From Comamonadaceae bacterium (GTDB taxonomy: Bacteria; Pseudomonadota; Gammaproteobacteria; Burkholderiales; Burkholderiaceae_C), in NCBI GenBank assembly GCA_947458305.1, contig CANGZO010000002.1, forward strand, positions 1-32,763: 32,763 nt of DNA, written 5' to 3'. Position 1 is the stretch's first letter. Each line of letters starts with the position of its first letter. The translations under genes were made by a program, and so were the position numbers. Shown in pieces: positions 11,993 to 26,527 of the stretch. The notes under the pieces were generated by a model that worked only from the letters and a program-made list of their open reading frames with translations, was not told where the DNA came from and did no database searches.

Positions 11993-12937
11993 TTAATCGT
12001 TGATCAACATTTCAAAGTGCTTGTAACTTTCGTCCATCTTGACATTCAGACGAATGCTGGAAAAGCTCTCATCATTTTCATCCACCGAAATCAGCCCGGT
12101 GACAACGCTTTTGAAATGCTCAGGATCCTTGTGCCTGATGGGCTGATAGGCATCGATGGCCGCAAAGATGTCTTTCAACGTGTAGCCATGGTCACGGGTC
12201 AGAACCATCAAATCAAAGATATCTCGTGACCTGACACGGTCATAAAGGGCGATGCTTTTCTTGGTCAAAAGCTCATCCAAGCCCACAACGTCGAAGCCCT
12301 CTTCGCCAATCTCCAGCTTTGGGGATGACTCCAAGAAGTCAACCTGACGCCAAGGTCTATCACTTGCTTCGTCTGCCTGTGTTGCGCTCAGGCCTTTGCT
12401 GATGTTGCCCAGCACTCTGGTCACAATGTCGCGGGTCATTTGCCCGAGCTCACACCGCTTGAACACGCGTTTGACCTTGGACACGCCGTAAGAAAAACAC
12501 AGCCGTGCAACGTCCTCAAATTTATGCACTTCGAGCACCTTGCCGATCAACACATCATCACGGATGTTCGGGTTGGACCAGTCGTACGCGCCAGACAGAC
12601 CTAAATTGACGGATTTGCGCGGCGCATTGGTACCTTGAATGGCTGCAAGCAGCCACGCAGGAATTAAGCCGGCGAAGCTGTCGACATCGCCCTTCTCCCA
12701 ATCACCAGTTGCTTGCTTGATCTCTGTCGTTGTCAGCTCTTTGACGCCACGGTTCCAGAGCGCCAACAACACCCTGCCCTTCGGGCTTGCTGCAAGCTGG
12801 ACTTTTCGCAAACTCATGCTCTGGGACTGCGGCACATGCCCTGCGGCCTTCACGGTCGGCGACAAACAAAAGGTGGGCATCAGAGGCACATCATTCGGAT
12901 CTGCGGTGGGTAAAAGACAAAGTAGGTTACATGTCAA
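11993..12937 (-). pseudogene. possible fusion/remnant: AbiEi-like partner N-terminus joined to an AbiEii-like nucleotidyltransferase C-terminus
   Basis: C-terminal LDELLTKKSIALYDRVRSRDIFDLMVLTRDHGYTLKDIF resembles AbiEii C-terminal regions, but no GSxxxDxD NTase core is present; family recall only. Confidence 0.4.
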
Positions 12938-13301: not shown

Positions 13302-13873
13302 ATGGCACAAGCAAAGACACTGACCCCGGAAGAAATAGAGCGATTGTTATTGCACATCAACACCCGCAAGTACGCCGCACGGAACAGATCGATGATGGTG
13401 CTCACCCACTGGGCGGGCCTGCGTATTGGCGCGGTGGCGGGCTTACGCTGGAGCGACGTCACCACCACAGAGGTGCTGGTGAAGGATGAGATTCGCCTGC
13501 TGCCCGACATGGCCAAGGGCCGTCACACGCGCACCGTGTTCGTCAGCACTAAACTGAAAGAGGAACTGCAAACCTACGCAGCTCAAGCCACGTGCTTGGA
13601 CCGCAGCTACCCGTTCTTTGCCAGACAAAAAACATCAAGCTGGGGTTCAACGCCAACAGCTTGGCTCAGACCTTTGCACTGATCTACGAAGGCGCTGGCC
13701 TGGAAGGCGCCAGCAGCCACAGTGGCCGCAGGACTTTTTTGACCAACTTGGCCAACAAAGGCACAGCGATTCATATTTTGAAAACGCTGGCTGGGCACCG
13801 CAGCATCAGCACCACCGCCGCCTACCTCTACAGCAGCCCCAATTTGCTTAAGGCAGCGGTGGAGTTGGCGTGA
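13302..13873 (+). pseudogene. catalytic-domain-only tyrosine recombinase, split by a -1 frameshift at an A6 tract (13627-13632)
   Basis: Frame 1 LTHWAGLRIGAVAGLRWSDV...GRHTRTVFVS; frame 2 ASSHSGRRTFLTNLANKG...LAGHRSISTTAAYLY; R...K...HxxR...H...Y set split over two frames. Confidence 0.85.
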
Positions 13874-13931: not shown

Positions 13932-14216
13932 CTAGGCCCCAGCCTGCACCTTCAATATCTGCAGCATCTGACCCGCAAGAGATGAACGGTCATAGCGCTT
14001 GGCACCAAGAGGGCCGTTGGCTTTATAACGAGCGTGCAAGTTTGGGTCATCGGCGAGGCGGCGTAGCCCATTGATGAGCGCTTCATAGTTCTCGGGTTCG
14101 AACAACAACCCAACGTCTTCACGCGTCACAATGCCCGCTGATTCACCCTCTACACCGTGAAGAACAGGTATGGCCATACCCATGCACTCAAACAACTTGG
14201 ATGGGATGCCCTTCGC
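13932..14216 (-). pseudogene. GT4-type glycosyltransferase, C-terminal fragment
   Basis: [56 protein letters not shown]; no N-terminal domain. Confidence 0.8.
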
Positions 14217-14646
14217 GCAGAAACTCGGGGCTAAACAGCAGATTGGTGGTGCTGTATTGCTGGCGGGCTTTTTCAACAAACCCCACGGGGATGGTGGATT
14301 TGATGACCATGACCACCTGGGAGTTGATGGCCATCACGTCTTGAATTACGGCCTCTACCGAGCCAGTGTTGAAGTGGTTTGTGACCGGGTCGTAATCGGT
14401 AGGAGTAGCAATGATGACGAAGTCTGCTCCGGTATAGGCCTCCTCCTTGCTCAACGTGGCGCGCAGGTTGAGGGGCTTGTTTTGTAGGTAATCCTGCAAC
14501 TCGGCCTCGTGTATGGGGCTGATGCGCTTGTTAATCATGTCCACTTTGGCAGACACGATGTCCAGCGCCACCACTTCGTGGTGCTGAGCCAGCAGCACGG
14601 CTATGGACAGTCCGACGTAACCGGTTCCGGCAATGGCGATTTTCAT
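14188..14646 (-). pseudogene. ugd: UDP-glucose 6-dehydrogenase, truncated N-terminal fragment
   Basis: [30 protein letters not shown]...STIPVGF...[11 protein letters not shown], then out-of-frame sequence and stop. Confidence 0.88.
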
Positions 14647-19508: not shown

Positions 19509-20690
19509 TTAGCGGCCGGTTGCTTGTCGACCGATGGCTTTGCGCCAGCTGGTTTTAAGGGCAACCAATTTTTGTGCCGATTCGCTGTCTTGGCTGGCGT
19601 TGCGCATGGCCTGGCGGATAAAGACGAAAAGCAAGAGGGCAAAGCCTGCGGCCAGGGTGGCGATGATGGCGATCTGGGCTTTTTTGGGTTTGCTCTTGCG
19701 CTCGGGGGGCTGGGCAGCGTCGAGCACCTGGATGACCGCGCCTTCACGCGATTCGTCCACCTTGGCCATCTCGAACTGGCGGGCGAAGAGTTCAAACAAG
19801 GTTTCTTGGTATTTGAACTCGCGGAACTTGGCCACATAGTCGCCCTGCCCGGCAGCGGCGGCGGGTTCGTCTTTTTCTTGTTTGGCCAACTGAGCCCGCA
19901 GGTTGGCCAGCTCGGTCATGGCTTGTTTGAAGTCGGGCGCGGTTTCGGCCAGGTAGCCGCGCATGGCGCCTACTTTGACTTCTTGCGCCGTGACTTGCGC
20001 CTTGAGGCCGGCCACAGCGGCCAGTGCCGATGTGGGATTAGATTTGAGCACGCTGCTGCTCACGCCAGTGGCGCGCAGGGCTTGTTCGGCCTCGGTGAAT
20101 TTTTCTTTGACTTGGCTCAGTTGCTTTTCAAAGAAGGCGCGGCGTTGCTGCGCTTCGGTCACGGCCAAGCGGGCCAACAGCTTTTGCAACTCTTCCACAT
20201 GGGCGTTAGCCAGGTCGGCGGCAAACTTCGGGTCTTTGTCGTCGATCTGCACCGTGATCAGGCCGTCTTTGCCACTGCTGGCGCGGGTGCTGCCGGTCAG
20301 TGCCGCACGCGCATCTTCTTTGAACTTGGCTTGGTATCGCTCGTCCAGCTTAAACCGCGCTATCAGCTCGTCTTGCACGCTGTTACTTTTCATAAAGGCG
20401 AGGTATTGGTCAGCCGGGTTTTTGATGCCCGCAGCACCGGCCAAACCACCCAGCCCACCCAGGCTGGCCAGCATGCTGGCGGCAGCGCTTTGCTGTTGTT
20501 GGGGCGGGAGGAATTTGACGGTGGCCGTGAAAGTGGGGGGAATGGTGAAGCTGTAGCCCAATGCGGCCAGGCCCACCACCAGCGGGCCGAGAATCAGCAG
20601 GCGCAGGTTGTCGACAATGGTTTGCAGCAAATCAAGCAGGCTGATTTCGTCGTCTTCTGCGGTGTCGGGGATGTGTGTGTTGTCGGTCAT
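19509..20690 (-). CDS. Wzz/GNVR-domain polysaccharide chain-length regulator
   Basis: N- and C-terminal TM segments; DDEISLLDLLQTIVDNLRLLILGPLVVG; coiled coil; LDAAQPPERKSKPKKAQI. Confidence 0.9.
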   Translation of the reverse strand: MTDNTHIPDTAEDDEISLLDLLQTIVDNLRLLILGPLVVGLAALGYSFTIPPTFTATVKFLPPQQQQSAAASMLASLGGLGGLAGAAGIKNPADQYLAFMKSNSVQDELIARFKLDERYQAKFKEDARAALTGSTRASSGKDGLITVQIDDKDPKFAADLANAHVEELQKLLARLAVTEAQQRRAFFEKQLSQVKEKFTEAEQALRATGVSSSVLKSNPTSALAAVAGLKAQVTAQEVKVGAMRGYLAETAPDFKQAMTELANLRAQLAKQEKDEPAAAAGQGDYVAKFREFKYQETLFELFARQFEMAKVDESREGAVIQVLDAAQPPERKSKPKKAQIAIIATLAAGFALLLFVFIRQAMRNASQDSESAQKLVALKTSWRKAIGRQATGR

Positions 20691-20708
20691 GCGGGGTGTG
20701 GAGGCATT

Positions 20709-20741
20709 TGTCGGGGCTGAAGCTGCCGACCTACGGGGTCA
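20709..20741 (-). repeat. REP-type hairpin copy A (TGTCGGGGCTGAAGCTGCCGACCTACGGGGTCA)
   Basis: Matches 21467-21499 and 23112-23144. Confidence 0.88.
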
Positions 20742-20760: not shown

Positions 20761-20781
20761 TTGGGCGGGGGTCAGGCGCAT
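20761..20781 (-). pseudogene. remnant of the MNT 5' head (ATGCGCCTGACCCCCGCCCAA)
   Basis: Identical to the first 21 nt of MNT genes C and D; runs into a stop (MRLTPAQY*). Confidence 0.75.
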
Positions 20782-20807
20782 GGCGGTATGAGTCTGGACT
20801 TGTAGGG

Positions 20808-21179
20808 TCAATGCACGGGCTCTGCCCAGGCACAGCCCAGGGTTTGCGCCACCGCAAGCAGTCTTTTGTCGCGGGTCCACAACTTGAAGCCAGAAATCAA
20901 TGTGCTGGCACAAAGGTGGGCGTCGATGTAGCCGATGCCTTTGCCCATCAGGTTTTTGCTATCGATGAAGTGCATGACCTCGTGGTCCATGGCGGGTTTC
21001 ACGGGTGGCAGTGCTTGCAACAGTTCAATCAAGGCTTGACGATTTTTCAGGTTGCCACAGGCGAGTTCGCCCACCACAAATGGATGGGTGGCGGCCTGGG
21101 TTTGCATCAGGGCCTGAACCAACAGCGGTTCGCCTTGACGCAAATGGTCTACCCACACAGAGGTGTCCACCAAAATCAT
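20808..21179 (-). CDS. vapC: VapC PIN-domain toxin
   Basis: MILVDTSVWVDHLRQGEP...YIDAHLCASTL...LWTRDKRL PIN acidic residues. Confidence 0.94.
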   Translation of the reverse strand: MILVDTSVWVDHLRQGEPLLVQALMQTQAATHPFVVGELACGNLKNRQALIELLQALPPVKPAMDHEVMHFIDSKNLMGKGIGYIDAHLCASTLISGFKLWTRDKRLLAVAQTLGCAWAEPVH

Positions 21180-21370
21180 GCTGCCGATTGTTGCCGTGCG
21201 ATGGGCTTGAGTTGGGGCTCGGTTCCGCCCAGTTGCGCCAAGCGATGGGCACTTTCGCGCTGAACAAGGGCCAACAAGGCTTCTCGCAGCAGCTGCGTGC
21301 GCTCAGTTAACCCGCTGATCTTCTGCGCTTGGGCCAGCAATTGATCATCGAGTGTCAGTGTGGTTCTCAT
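21176..21370 (-). CDS. vapB: VapB antitoxin
   Basis: MRTTLTLDDQLLAQAQKISGLTERTQLLREALLALVQRE; 4-nt overlap with vapC. Confidence 0.9.
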   Translation of the reverse strand: MRTTLTLDDQLLAQAQKISGLTERTQLLREALLALVQRESAHRLAQLGGTEPQLKPIARQQSAA

Positions 21371-21423
21371 GGCCAAGGTCCTTTGATCATCAAAATTCGC
21401 ATCATTTTATTCGAATAATGATG

Positions 21424-21461
21424 CCTTGGATGGTGTCGATTTGGGCGGGGATGAGGCGCAT
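21424..21461 (-). pseudogene. remnant of the MNT 5' head (MRLIPAQIDTIQG...)
   Basis: Near-identical to the starts of the three intact MNT genes, then stop (MRLIPAQIDTIQGIIIRIK*). Confidence 0.85.
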
Positions 21462-21462
21462 G

Positions 21463-21500
21463 TTTTTGTCGGGGCTAAAGCCCCCGACCTACGGGGTCAT
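21463..21500 (-). repeat. REP-type hairpin copy B
   Basis: TTTTTGTCGGGGCTAAAGCCCCCGACCTACGGGGTCAT. Confidence 0.92.
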
Positions 21501-22045
21501 TGTGTTTTTTTGTATTGATTTGACACTTGTTGAAATTCAATAGCAAAGTCTTGACTGAGCGGCTCGACTTTCAACTGTTCTGCGCAATAGCTCATGAATT
21601 TGGCAGCAATGCGAACCTGTTCAGGCACCAATTCATGCAAGGTGTTGAAGTGCTCCGCGACTTTGTCGTAGTCGGTTTCGTAGTCATGTGCGGCCAGATT
21701 GCGGGCCGTTCTGGCCAGTTGCCAAGATTCAATGCTGGTCACAACACCCTGCTTTTCAAACAGTGCCAACACTTTGATGAAGCTGTCAGCTTGTTCACCC
21801 GACAACAACAGGCTGTGCCGCATGGCCGAACCCGTTGTGTCTTGCAATTTGGCAAACCGTTCGTTGACTGCAGCCAAGGCTTCAAAGAGCGGATTGTCTT
21901 TTTTGTGCTCGCTCAAATAAGCGCCCGACAATGGCCAAGTGATGGTGCTGGTGCTGGCATTCAAAAAATACACGCAGCGCTGAATGGCTTCCAGCAATCC
22001 CGCCAGATGCTCACGCTGGTTTCCTAACAGTTGCTCGGTGCTCAT
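21497..22045 (-). CDS. HepT-like HEPN toxin, module 1
   Basis: RX4HxY motif RNLAAHDY; 4-nt overlap with upstream MNT; stop lies in the REP hairpin. Confidence 0.82.
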   Translation of the reverse strand: MSTEQLLGNQREHLAGLLEAIQRCVYFLNASTSTITWPLSGAYLSEHKKDNPLFEALAAVNERFAKLQDTTGSAMRHSLLLSGEQADSFIKVLALFEKQGVVTSIESWQLARTARNLAAHDYETDYDKVAEHFNTLHELVPEQVRIAAKFMSYCAEQLKVEPLSQDFAIEFQQVSNQYKKTQ

Positions 22046-22344
22046 TTCACGAACCCCGTCAAAACCTGGGCTTGGCTGCGTGCCATGCGTGCAAATGCGC
22101 TGGCGTGCTGTGGTGAAGCGGTCACGATGTCGACTGGAAGCTGTAGTTGCATCTCCAGCCGGTTTTTGATGCGGGCACGATCCAGCAGCACTGGCTCCGG
22201 CTGCGCCTCGATCAAGAGATCCACGTCTCCCCCTCGCCGACTGTCATCCAACCGCGAACCAAACAGAGACACCACCGCACCCTCACCCAGCACCGCGTGC
22301 ACGGTGCTTTGGATGGTGTCGATTTGGGCGGGGGTCAGGCGCAT
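22042..22344 (-). CDS. MntA-like MNT antitoxin, module 1
   Basis: MRLTPAQIDTIQSTVHAVLGEGAVVSLFGSRLDDSRRGGDVDLLIE. Confidence 0.92.
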   Translation of the reverse strand: MRLTPAQIDTIQSTVHAVLGEGAVVSLFGSRLDDSRRGGDVDLLIEAQPEPVLLDRARIKNRLEMQLQLPVDIVTASPQHASAFARMARSQAQVLTGFVK

Positions 22345-22363
22345 GGGTAGGTGATGGTTAAGC

Positions 22364-22825
22364 TTATTTTTTGGTGTACGTGGCTTGGCAAAAGCTGTTG
22401 AGCTGTTCGTGCCATGCCAACAGCTCTGGTGCAGCCTGAATCATTTGCTCGAAGAATTCATGCAGCGTTGCTGGATCGTCTTCGTATTCGTGGTTCACCG
22501 CGTTGCGCAGCTCGCGGATGTCTTTCCAGCGCTCCACCGATGCAATGCAGCCCAGCTTTTCCATGTAGAGAAGCACGGCGGTGAAGGGCTCGGCGGGTTT
22601 TTCTTCTTCGATGGCGATGGCTTTCATGGTTTTACCCATGTGCTCTTGGTATTCGCTGAAGCGAATGCGAAATGCTGCCAATGTTTCGTGCTGGTCTGGC
22701 TGCAAGGCGTGCCAGTCTGAGATGGGCAAAAGGGCCGCTGCCCGAGAGATGGAATAGCTCAAGTACTCCCGCATGCGGGCCAAGTGGTCCAGCTTTTTAA
22801 AGATCAAAGCAATGTGTTCGCTCAC
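22364..22825 (-). CDS. HepT-like HEPN toxin, module 2
   Basis: RX4HxY motif RNAVNHEY; 4-nt overlap with MNT. Confidence 0.85.
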   Translation of the reverse strand: MSEHIALIFKKLDHLARMREYLSYSISRAAALLPISDWHALQPDQHETLAAFRIRFSEYQEHMGKTMKAIAIEEEKPAEPFTAVLLYMEKLGCIASVERWKDIRELRNAVNHEYEDDPATLHEFFEQMIQAAPELLAWHEQLNSFCQATYTKK

Positions 22826-23106
22826 AGGCGGATGCCTTGTTGTTTGGCGATCAGCGCGATGGGGCTGCGGTCGCCATGCGGTTTGACGATCAAATCTACC
22901 GGCAAATCAAGCTGGTCTTGCAGGCTGACTTTGCAGCGGATTTTTTTCATCAAATCAGGTTGCGCGGTTTCCACGTACAAGTCCACGTCACCGCCTTTTT
23001 GCTGGTCATTGACCCGCGACCCAAACAGCGTGACCTGCGCATCCTCCCCCAGCACCGCGTGCACGGTGCTTTGGATGGTGTCGATTTGGGCGGGGGTCAG
23101 GCGCAT
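22822..23106 (-). CDS. MntA-like MNT antitoxin, module 2
   Basis: MRLTPAQIDTIQSTVHAVLGEDAQVTLFGSRVNDQQKGGDVDLYVE. Confidence 0.92.
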   Translation of the reverse strand: MRLTPAQIDTIQSTVHAVLGEDAQVTLFGSRVNDQQKGGDVDLYVETAQPDLMKKIRCKVSLQDQLDLPVDLIVKPHGDRSPIALIAKQQGIRL

Positions 23107-23107
23107 A

Positions 23108-23145
23108 TTTTTGTCGGGGCTAAAGCCACCGACCTACGGGGTCAT
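23108..23145 (-). repeat. REP-type hairpin copy D
   Basis: TTTTTGTCGGGGCTAAAGCCACCGACCTACGGGGTCAT. Confidence 0.92.
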
Positions 23146-23613
23146 TAGTTGGGTTGCTTTGGCGATCATGGCCTCGCCTGCTTTGACCAGCGTGCTCACA
23201 TGCTGGTGACCAGCTTGGAGGGCGCTGGTCAGGATGGCGAGGTCTTCAATGTATTCATGCACCATTTGGTTGCGCAGTTTTCGAATTTCAAGCCAGGTTT
23301 CCGCCGATTCGATCCAACCCAGATGCTCGGCACGGTCAAGGTTGTCAATGGCAGCACCAGGTTTTTCTGCCACGGCCATCAACAGTTGCGGCAAAAACTT
23401 GTCGCCAATGTTGTCTTGCAAGCGCCCAAAACGGCTGACAAATGCGTCCAGCCGTTCGGCCAAAATGGGATCGGTCTCGATTTTTTGCGCTGCTTCGATG
23501 GTGAACAAATCGGCAAACAGTCGTCGATCTGTATCGAGTAAGTGCTTGATTTCTTTTTGCGTGATGCGGCAAAGAAATGTCAGGCGTTCGTGCTGAGCTT
23601 GCTGGAGCTTCAC
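23134..23613 (-). CDS. HepT-like HEPN toxin, module 3
   Basis: RX4HxY motif RNQMVHEY; stop lies within the REP hairpin; 4-nt overlap with MNT. Confidence 0.87.
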   Translation of the reverse strand: MKLQQAQHERLTFLCRITQKEIKHLLDTDRRLFADLFTIEAAQKIETDPILAERLDAFVSRFGRLQDNIGDKFLPQLLMAVAEKPGAAIDNLDRAEHLGWIESAETWLEIRKLRNQMVHEYIEDLAILTSALQAGHQHVSTLVKAGEAMIAKATQLMTP

Positions 23614-23909
23614 AACCGTACCCCTTCTTGGCTGGCAATACGGTGGATGGGTTGCTCCAACAAGTTGGGGGCTTTCAAAAGAACATCCACTTTACGGCCG
23701 TGCATCACGCGCGAGATGCGGCTGGCAATACGGGCGGACACCACGGCGGGGTCTTCAATGCCTTGTTGGACTTCCACCATCAAATCGACATCACCACCCT
23801 TGAGGCTATCGTCCACCCTAGATCCAAACAGCGTGACCTGCGCACCCTCCCCCAGCACCGCGTGCACGGTGCTTTGGATGGTGTCGATTTGGGCGGGGGT
23901 GAGGCGCAT
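23610..23909 (-). CDS. MntA-like MNT antitoxin, module 3
   Basis: MRLTPAQIDTIQSTVHAVLGEGAQVTLFGSRVDDSLKGGDVDLMVE. Confidence 0.92.
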   Translation of the reverse strand: MRLTPAQIDTIQSTVHAVLGEGAQVTLFGSRVDDSLKGGDVDLMVEVQQGIEDPAVVSARIASRISRVMHGRKVDVLLKAPNLLEQPIHRIASQEGVRL

Positions 23910-23919
23910 GGGGTAGGGA

Positions 23920-26349
23920 TCAGTTGCGTAAGGTGCGGATGGCGGCGGCGCCGATGCCGAGGTTGCTGAAGATCTGGGTCCAGTCGCGCAGGGCGCGGAC
24001 CAAGAAGTTGTAGCTGCTCTCGCGGTCTATTTTTGCGGGAACGACCAGTGTGTCGCCGGGCATGACGGCTAGGCTTTCAAAGTTATTGAAAAAGCTGGCA
24101 CCTTGGCGGCTGAGGATCGAGCCGTCGGCGCGCACCACAAAGGCGGCTTTGGCATTGGCCTCTTCGGTCAGGCCGGCTGATTTGATGACATCGCCCACCG
24201 TGCGCCCGGGTTTGTAGATCAGGCTGTTTTCATTGTTGACACTGCCCGCCGCGGACACGAATGCGGGCAAGCTGGGCACCAAGAAAGTGTCGCCGTCTTC
24301 AAGGGGCAAAGCCGGCAATGTAGCCTGCAGGCTTCGCAGCGTTTCGGTGGACAAGGGCTCTGACAAAGTGCTGCGAGCATGCAAGGCAGGGTTTAACTCG
24401 AGCGACACGCGGCCTTGGCTGCGCATGGTTTTGAGCTTGTCGATTTGCGCGCGCTGCTGAGCCATTTGCTGTTGTTGGAGCGCAGACGCCTGGGCGACGC
24501 GGTCGGGCGACAAATTGGCGGTCAAGGTGGCGCTGGCACTGGAGGCTTGGGCCTCTAGGCGGCGAATGACTTGGTCGAGGTTTTTTTGCTGTTGCTGGCG
24601 CACCGATTCGCGGGTGAATTCGGCGCCAAACAAATAGGCCTCCGAGGTGAGGCCACCCACGCGTTGCAACAGTTGAGGCAAAGTTTCGCCTGGGTTGATT
24701 TGGTAGATACCGGGCACCTTGACCTCACCGCCAATGCGCACAAACTGGGTGCGCCTGGACACAGGCACCGGCACATCGTTGACGCTGAATACGGTGACCA
24801 CGTCGCCGGGCTGCAGGACCAAATTGTGCTGGGGGTCCTTGTCAATCACCGCTTTGCGCAAGTTAAAGGTCACCAAGTTGGTTTTCACCTCTTTGGGGTC
24901 GAGGCGCTCAATGGCGGCATAGTCCCAATTGACTTCTTGCAGCAGGTTTTTAACGTCGTTCAAAACCTGCACTTTGTTGATGGTTTCAGGCTCCTTCAAT
25001 TGGACCAGGCCGTTTTTGCGCACGAAGTAATCACTCTGAATCAAGGCCTGCGGCTCGGGGATCAGGTCCGAGATGCGCATGCCGCTGATGAAGCTGTAGC
25101 GCAAGGGTGCGGCCACGTTGCCGCGCAAGGTGACGGCATTTGAAAACTGAGGGCTGATGGCAAACAGGGTGAGCACATCACCGTCTTGCAGGGTTTGCTG
25201 CAGGCCCTGTGCATTGAGCACGATTTCTTGCACTTGGCGGGGGTGCTTCTGCTGGGGCGAAACCCGCTCGAGCAAGGCTTTTTGGGGCGTGGTGAGAGAG
25301 GCCAAACCACCGCCCAGCTGCAAGATGGATTGCACGGTGTTGCCGGGCTTGAGTTCGTAAATGGCCTGGTGGTCGGTGGCGCCCGTGAGGGCCACGCGCG
25401 GACCCGCTGGCGGGATCATGATGACGTCGCCCGGCTGCAGGCGGGCGTCTTTGCTTTTGTCGCCTTGGGCGATGAAGTCGTACAGGTCGAGCGTGGTGAT
25501 GGTCTGGCCGCCGCGCTTGAGCTGGATGTTGCGCATGCTGCCGTTGGCACCCGGGCCGCCACTGGCAAACACCGCGTTGACCAAGGTGGACAAACTGCTC
25601 AAGTTGTAAGTGCCCGGCTGCTGGGCTTGGCCGACCACATAAACCGTGATGCCGCGCAACTTGCCCAGACTGGCGCTGAGCGTGACGTTGTTGAACACCG
25701 TGCTGACGTGTTTGCGCAAGGTGGATTCGAGGTCTTTGACTTGAACGCCGCTCAGCTGAACGCTGCCGATCTTGGGCAAGGTGATTTGGCCGTTGCGGTC
25801 GATGGTCTGGCTGTCGGCATAGTCCACACTGCCCCAAATGCGGATGCGCACCTCGTCGCCTTGGCCCAGCACATATTCAGCCGGGGCAGGCGCTGCAGCG
25901 TCTGGCGCATAGGTTTGGGGGTTGTCAAACAGGTTGCTGCCAAAGTGGGGCAACAGGTTGCCGGTGCCGGCCTGCACAAAACGCTGAAACTGGCTAAGAG
26001 TAGGTGTGCGGGGCGCGCGTTGTGGGGTGAGCGCGCCGCTGGGGGCGTCTGAGGCGCCCAAGTCGCGGCCTTGCTGCGAGCCTGGCGCTTGTGCGCCACC
26101 CATGGGGTTGGGTGCAGTTGGCAAAGCACCCAACGGGGCACCTGCTGAGCCGGGCACACCCTGAGCCGCGCTCGGATTGCCCACAAAACCGCCAGCACCA
26201 CCCATGCCCGCAAAACCAGACAATGACGGGGCAGCCACTGTTGCGGCCACCTGCATTTGCGCCTGGGCCTGAAAGCCGATTGCAGCAAGGAGCGACAGCA
26301 GCAAGACATGGGCCACAGATTGCGAGTGCTTCTGGAACTTGTGAAACAT
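23920..26349 (-). CDS. SLBB-domain polysaccharide export outer-membrane protein (Wza-like)
   Basis: Signal peptide; AEYVLGQGDEVRIRIWGSVDYADSQTIDRNGQITLPKIGSVQLSGV; multiple SLBB repeats. Confidence 0.93.
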   Translation of the reverse strand: MFHKFQKHSQSVAHVLLLSLLAAIGFQAQAQMQVAATVAAPSLSGFAGMGGAGGFVGNPSAAQGVPGSAGAPLGALPTAPNPMGGAQAPGSQQGRDLGASDAPSGALTPQRAPRTPTLSQFQRFVQAGTGNLLPHFGSNLFDNPQTYAPDAAAPAPAEYVLGQGDEVRIRIWGSVDYADSQTIDRNGQITLPKIGSVQLSGVQVKDLESTLRKHVSTVFNNVTLSASLGKLRGITVYVVGQAQQPGTYNLSSLSTLVNAVFASGGPGANGSMRNIQLKRGGQTITTLDLYDFIAQGDKSKDARLQPGDVIMIPPAGPRVALTGATDHQAIYELKPGNTVQSILQLGGGLASLTTPQKALLERVSPQQKHPRQVQEIVLNAQGLQQTLQDGDVLTLFAISPQFSNAVTLRGNVAAPLRYSFISGMRISDLIPEPQALIQSDYFVRKNGLVQLKEPETINKVQVLNDVKNLLQEVNWDYAAIERLDPKEVKTNLVTFNLRKAVIDKDPQHNLVLQPGDVVTVFSVNDVPVPVSRRTQFVRIGGEVKVPGIYQINPGETLPQLLQRVGGLTSEAYLFGAEFTRESVRQQQQKNLDQVIRRLEAQASSASATLTANLSPDRVAQASALQQQQMAQQRAQIDKLKTMRSQGRVSLELNPALHARSTLSEPLSTETLRSLQATLPALPLEDGDTFLVPSLPAFVSAAGSVNNENSLIYKPGRTVGDVIKSAGLTEEANAKAAFVVRADGSILSRQGASFFNNFESLAVMPGDTLVVPAKIDRESSYNFLVRALRDWTQIFSNLGIGAAAIRTLRN

Positions 26350-26386
26350 ATGTGATGACAAATTAGGAGGGGTGCTGCGCGACATG

Positions 26387-26398
26387 CAGGCTACCGCA
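26387..26398 (-). promoter_or_regulatory. candidate ops element TGCGGTAGCCTG in the leader of the SLBB export gene
   Basis: 11/12 match to ops consensus GGCGGTAGYNTG; adjacent RfaH-like gene on the same strand. Confidence 0.5.
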
Positions 26399-26527
26399 AT
26401 GTTGATGCTGGAACAACAACACAATCATGAGCAGCGGTTTTGCTAAAAATACAAAAACAACAACTGTCTATCTTAACCTGTGCAGATTAATCGGTTCTGA
26501 CGGTTGGCGACAAAGATCTGTGTGTAC

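Follow-up and report, generated by a model that had tools for sequence, protein, structure and literature searches.

Toxin-antitoxin (TA) pairs of the MNT-HEPN kind, and their mobility, are already known (PMC2701414), and one described system is HepT/MntA (type VII), represented by SO_3166/SO_3165 of S. oneidensis (PMC7641770). Chromosomal integron cassette arrays are also rich in TA pairs (PMC11551772, PMC1382264). It remains an open question how TA modules are gained, lost and diversified without exposing the cell to free toxin. The DNA analysed in this study, referred to as the window, is a stretch of 32,763 nucleotides carrying a tandem array of MNT-HEPN modules whose antitoxin genes have a near-identical 5' end, referred to as the head. 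A published TA array with a concertedly evolving antitoxin 5' end and an exchanged body and toxin was not found in the open-access literature, to which our search was limited.

The locus resembles HepT/MntA in that each MNT gene of the window adjoins a HEPN gene, the HEPN proteins carry RX4HXY and the predicted MNT fold matches MntA and MNT antitoxins. It differs in that the window modules score far under the family cut-offs, have GSX9DXD rather than GSX10DXD, place the MNT gene first and form a tandem array with common heads. Like integron cassette arrays, the array consists of small tandem modules in one direction, each accompanied by a repeat, with content that varies between relatives. Unlike in integrons, no integron integrase was found (in a genome that is 76% complete), the repeat lies within the antitoxin coding sequence and the junctions do not fall at a single base. 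Tandem paralogs undergo concerted evolution and unequal crossing-over, and polymorphic toxins and pilin genes undergo cassette recombination. In all of these, as in the array, a constant segment is followed by downstream parts that can be exchanged, but in the array it is the 5' end of an antitoxin gene that is constant and the antitoxin body together with the toxin that varies.

Organization of the array

The array belongs to Limnohabitans, a genus of freshwater bacteria, and its own genome is a 2.17-Mb metagenome-assembled genome (MAG), 76% complete. On the minus strand the order is head-MNT1-HEPN1, head-MNT2-HEPN2, head-MNT3-HEPN3, a 40-nt orphan head, VapBC and a 21-nt orphan head (Table 1). 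The array is flanked by a polysaccharide-export gene, whose stop codon is 10 nt ahead of the first head, and a chain-length determinant gene, within a surface-polysaccharide cluster for mannose/fucose-type polysaccharide synthesis.

Table 1. Features of the array and its two flanking genes in the window.
Feature	Position	Strand	Evidence
Polysaccharide export gene (Wza-like, SLBB/Poly_export), left flank	23920..26424	-	Pfam PF02563, PF10531; ORF list
MNT module 1 antitoxin gene, type T1, 99 aa, GSX9DXD, head nt 1-~84	23610..23909	-	Fold similar to 8xeo, TM 0.67
HEPN module 1 toxin gene, 159 aa, RNQMVHEY (RX4HXY), overlaps MNT stop by 4 nt	23134..23613	-	Fold like HEPN/HepT chains
REP-like palindromic repeat adjoining second head upstream; copy at 21463-21500	23109..23147	.	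D2 repeat
MNT module 2 antitoxin gene, type T2, 94 aa	22822..23106	-	
HEPN module 2 toxin gene, 153 aa, RNAVNHEY, without Pfam match	22364..22825	-	
MNT module 3 antitoxin gene, type T3, 100 aa	22042..22344	-	
HEPN module 3 toxin gene, 182 aa, RNLAAHDY, without Pfam match	21497..22045	-	
Orphan head, 40 nt, then VapBC where MNT-HEPN body would be	21422..21461	-	
VapB antitoxin	21176..21376	-	PF09957
VapC PIN-domain toxin	20808..21179	-	PF01850
Terminal orphan head, 21 nt, ahead of chain-length gene	20761..20781	-	
Chain-length determinant gene (Wzz/GNVR; 'wzc'), right flank	19509..20690	-	PF02706, PF13807

The original prediction listed two further heads without bodies. Both are present, at 21461 (40 nt, 93% identity, E = 1.7e-10) and at 20781 (21 nt, 100%, E = 3e-4; searches of the 2.17-Mb own genome), but the DNA between them is not empty and holds the VapBC pair (21376-20808). 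No close copy of the head was found outside the array locus in this incomplete genome. The head at 23106 and the orphan at 21461 also have about 38 nt of REP-like sequence upstream in common, so the homology does not always start at the ATG.

Several observations were made in passing. The REP-like repeat GTAGGTCGGGGGCTTTAGCCCCGAC adjoins heads at 23109-23147, 21463-21500 and approximately 20697-20740, and related REP-like repeats occupy the same gap in other Limnohabitans genomes. An attC-like hairpin in the G000 head (stem AGCACCG...CGGTGCT) was considered and dropped, being broken by eye in G503 and G466. Elsewhere in the window, a short N-terminal piece of a UDP-glucose/GDP-mannose dehydrogenase (14188-14646) adjoins a C-terminal piece of a glycosyltransferase (13932-14279), both on the minus strand, which are signs of rearrangement. 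An AbiEii-like nucleotidyltransferase toxin (PF08843), another TA-type gene of the same polysaccharide cluster, is encoded at 11993-12937 (minus strand).

Identity of the MNT and HEPN proteins

Membership in MntA/HepT was judged by the NCBIfam equivalog cut-offs (NF047752 / NF047751, 60 bits). The window MNT proteins scored 16.5-23.1 bits and HEPN1 16.0 bits, and HEPN2 and HEPN3 had no match, so this criterion was not met. The RX4HXY toxin motif is met in all three HEPN proteins; the GSX10DXD antitoxin motif is not, as the window MNT proteins have GS-X9-DXD. Because of the low scores and the shorter motif spacing, the window modules were not filed as members of MntA/HepT, and the name MntA-HepT used in the original prediction is too strong for them.

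The criterion for the MNT-HEPN superfamily was met: small MNT-fold and HEPN-fold proteins adjoin in one operon with a 4-nt overlap. MNT2 and MNT3 are over the cut-off of Pfam PF01909 and MNT1 is under it. The MNT fold prediction (pLDDT 89; helix 5-19, strands 24-28 and 41-46) matches antitoxin structures (8xeo, TM 0.67; 6m6v MntA-HepT, 0.67). The HEPN1 prediction (pLDDT 92.5) resembles HEPN/HepT chains at TM 0.5-0.6 with E > 0.001, and for this reason is taken as supportive only. A PDB sequence search with an MNT profile gave chance-level matches only. The window modules are thus described as MNT-HEPN relatives that probably act in a HepT/MntA-like way, their chemistry being inferred from motifs and fold.

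Heads and bodies in related genomes

A strict pattern search allowing one mismatch in 400 family genomes recovered the head in its own genome only. This limit was too tight and missed the relatives, since a DNA search of the genus found the head in 22 of 91 Limnohabitans species genomes. A DNA search of plasmids for the head gave no match, and a plasmid protein search gave a single distant match from Parabacteroides. One contig with a Limnohabitans-type cluster (L146, CALQKH020000008.1) is titled as an Akkermansia muciniphila MAG; the title looks mislabelled and the contig was filed under Limnohabitans.

The bodies of the 38 full-length MNT genes collected fall into seven types. In intact pairs of types T1-T6 the HEPN protein is specific to the MNT type, with RX4HXY in HEPN types 1-6, and in all intact T1-T4 and T6 pairs the MNT and HEPN genes overlap briefly, nearly always by 4 nt. 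The site after the export gene holds a head with differing bodies or remnants in seven genomes; in several relatives the export and chain-length genes abut without an array. Further TA genes in or beside the arrays include MazE, ParD, DUF2442 and AbiEii. The arrays are present in cultured isolates and not only in MAGs, which rules out an assembly artefact.

As a separate observation, the T1 MNT genes of L. planktonicus II-D5 (G424, L047) and DM1 (G460, L078) have no HEPN partner and instead overlap a SLFN_AlbA_2/HATPase gene by 4 nt. In G489 a gene of this type follows the HEPN gene, as if HEPN had been excised between two overlaps in G460 and G424.

Concerted evolution of the heads

Compared pairwise over their first 60 positions, the three MNT heads of the window (23909, 23106 and 22344, minus strand) have 1, 2 and 1 mismatches, leaving 58-59 identical. 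When codons were randomised under the same protein and local codon usage, 48.7 of 60 matches were expected, and the observed agreement was not reached in any of 20,000 randomisations. Sliding identity of the three genes is about 0.97 or more to nt 45-60, then drops and reaches about 0.57 by nt 91-120; past the head the bodies are about 41% identical, and the proteins about 57%. Both the near-identical starts and the strong divergence after them, as originally predicted, are therefore borne out.

Seven genomes have both T1 and T2, and these were used to contrast identity within and between genomes. Over codons 1-20 the heads were 96.4% identical within genomes, compared with 87.8% (T1) and 88.9% (T2) between orthologs. 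At third positions the values were 96.4% compared with 79.3% and 82.9%. The contrast fades over codons 21-34 and 35-43, and in the bodies it is reversed, with 41% within a genome (T1 vs T2) vs 72% and 85% between orthologs. In an exact permutation of the genome pairing (5040 pairings), the three head segments gave 2, 10 and 27 and the body 3875. In the body tree every type is one clade (96/88, 99/97, 94/86), while the head tree does not separate the types (11 changes; shuffled mean 10.8) and joins the head pairs of G000, G482 and G496 in supported clades.

Thus the criterion for concerted evolution was met, with paralogs within a genome closer than orthologs between species in one segment only. 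The heads are homogenised within genomes, and this is not explained by shared ancestry with selection on the head alone. The head-body permutation and the trees strongly support the predicted recombination or gene conversion at the head with body swapping, although swapping in living populations has not been shown.

Breakpoints and module presence

The end of the near-identical tract within a genome varies, at about nt 84 in the window and at 99 (G423), 117 (G489) and 129 (G482 and G496). In the last two genomes the T1 and T2 genes are approximately 96-99% identical across 129 nt and unrelated beyond. Shorter heads of 21, 31, 36, 40, 42, 60 and 72 nt stand on other MNT types or alone. At the protein level the shortest heads cover part or all of helix 1 and the longest reach up to the catalytic DXD.

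Only T5, found in other genomes, is over the NCBIfam MntA and HepT cut-offs (63.5 and 77.3), and it has the X10 spacing. The T5 match begins at residue 23, just past the head, and from there on the protein is a true MntA; the N-termini of four relatives from other genera are unrelated. T6 has a 31-nt head in G461 and none in G406. Body and toxin travel together without the head, and the head is grafted onto other MNT families. The check proposed with the original prediction, a search for the same head joined to other families, was thus met by true MntA-HepT (T5), by MNT types T4, T6 and T7 and by VapBC after an orphan head.

DM1 has the order T5-T2-T1 and II-D5 has T2-T1, with a left flank common to both. 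Informative sites of II-D5 favoured the DM1 T5 flank upstream by 32 to 5 and DM1 T2 after the head by 47 to 9. The same pattern holds for T5 ahead of T1 in the pair T6-5 (G465) and MMS-10A-192 (G466), with counts of 28 to 4 upstream and 42 to 8 after the head. In these two species pairs the presence or absence of the MntA-HepT (T5) module of about 820 bp is exactly head to head. In addition, every array holds each body type at most once (0.0009 when shuffled without regard to relatedness).

Discussion

From the variable tract ends, the single orientation and the absence of a linked recombinase, general homologous recombination between direct repeats is inferred. It is likely that through such recombination the heads of a genome stay alike and bodies are lost, gained or replaced along with their toxins; current activity is unproven, as no array variants of a single species could be compared. 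The MNT-HEPN array is inserted between two surface-polysaccharide genes. The toxin is presumed, from motifs and fold, to be an RNase silenced through adenylylation by the MNT antitoxin. The first 60-130 nt of each MNT gene would serve as direct-repeat homology for crossing-over and gene conversion, probably RecA-dependent, together with uptake of DNA from relatives. Each exchange would remove, add or replace the antitoxin body along with the toxin and keep the reading frame. Other TA pairs have also lodged behind orphan heads. The exchange point lies inside the antitoxin gene, ahead of the toxin-linked part, and therefore a matched pair would stand under an existing start each time. What is inferred and not shown is that the route is homologous, how the toxin works chemically and whether there is any benefit. 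Two further points count against this reading. Codon identity at shared residues between species is 0.69 for head codons 1-20 vs 0.61 for the chain-length gene, so some nucleotide-level constraint or between-species transfer is possible, and grafts as short as 31-36 nt come close to the minimum commonly cited for efficient RecA recombination.

That slight excess of synonymous identity over the flanking gene would also be expected if the head nucleotides were fixed by purifying selection for translation start, RNA structure or antitoxin function, without recombination. The coding start might matter for translation, given that no clear Shine-Dalgarno sequence was seen by eye ahead of the heads. 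Such selection is nevertheless very improbable as the explanation: the heads match within genomes yet differ between species, MNT genes of other genera keep the protein motif only (an adjoining pair there is 47% identical in the head), and orphan heads persist without a gene. The finding named beforehand as refuting recombination was thus not seen, as synonymous differences separate species despite 96% agreement within a genome. A weaker claim is that gene conversion alone acted, the modules having arrived otherwise (by illegitimate insertion or transfer with the polysaccharide cluster) and the heads having been homogenised later with no role in gain or loss. Conversion would account for the graded tract ends, and REP-like repeats and headless TA families also occur in these clusters. 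We regard this as unlikely, because both junctions of module presence or absence lie in heads in two species pairs, and because the lack of repeated body types would follow if identical modules collapsed or excluded one another.

The head could also be a recombination site at which TA cassettes are moved by an integrase of an integron-like or similar kind. The modules have one orientation, with heads on both sides, VapBC included, and a truncated tyrosine recombinase (Phage_integrase, PF00589) is encoded at 13302-13682 on the plus strand, within the polysaccharide cluster and opposite to its neighbours. However, this fragment is short and 7 kb off, the tract ends are scattered over 21-129 nt with no single crossover point, no recombinase was recognised by eye among the array ORFs, and the best score for an integron integrase (TIGR02249) was 63 bits against a cut-off of 265 in the 76% complete genome. 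A site-specific system is considered improbable, but with an incomplete genome and no search for attC folding it cannot be ruled out.

Under general homologous recombination, the head is probably where paralogous MNT genes stay similar enough, and whether it is selected as a handle is open. Swapping may be a mere consequence of homology in common, and more than that is not shown. It is a tentative suggestion, and rather doubtful at present, that the head is a recombination handle kept for use in the in-frame uptake and swap of antitoxin-toxin bodies at a fixed polysaccharide site. Cultured freshwater isolates make module turnover at this surface-polysaccharide locus directly measurable. If the handle reading were true, the array would be a recombinase-free counterpart of the integron for TA or anti-phage modules in Limnohabitans.
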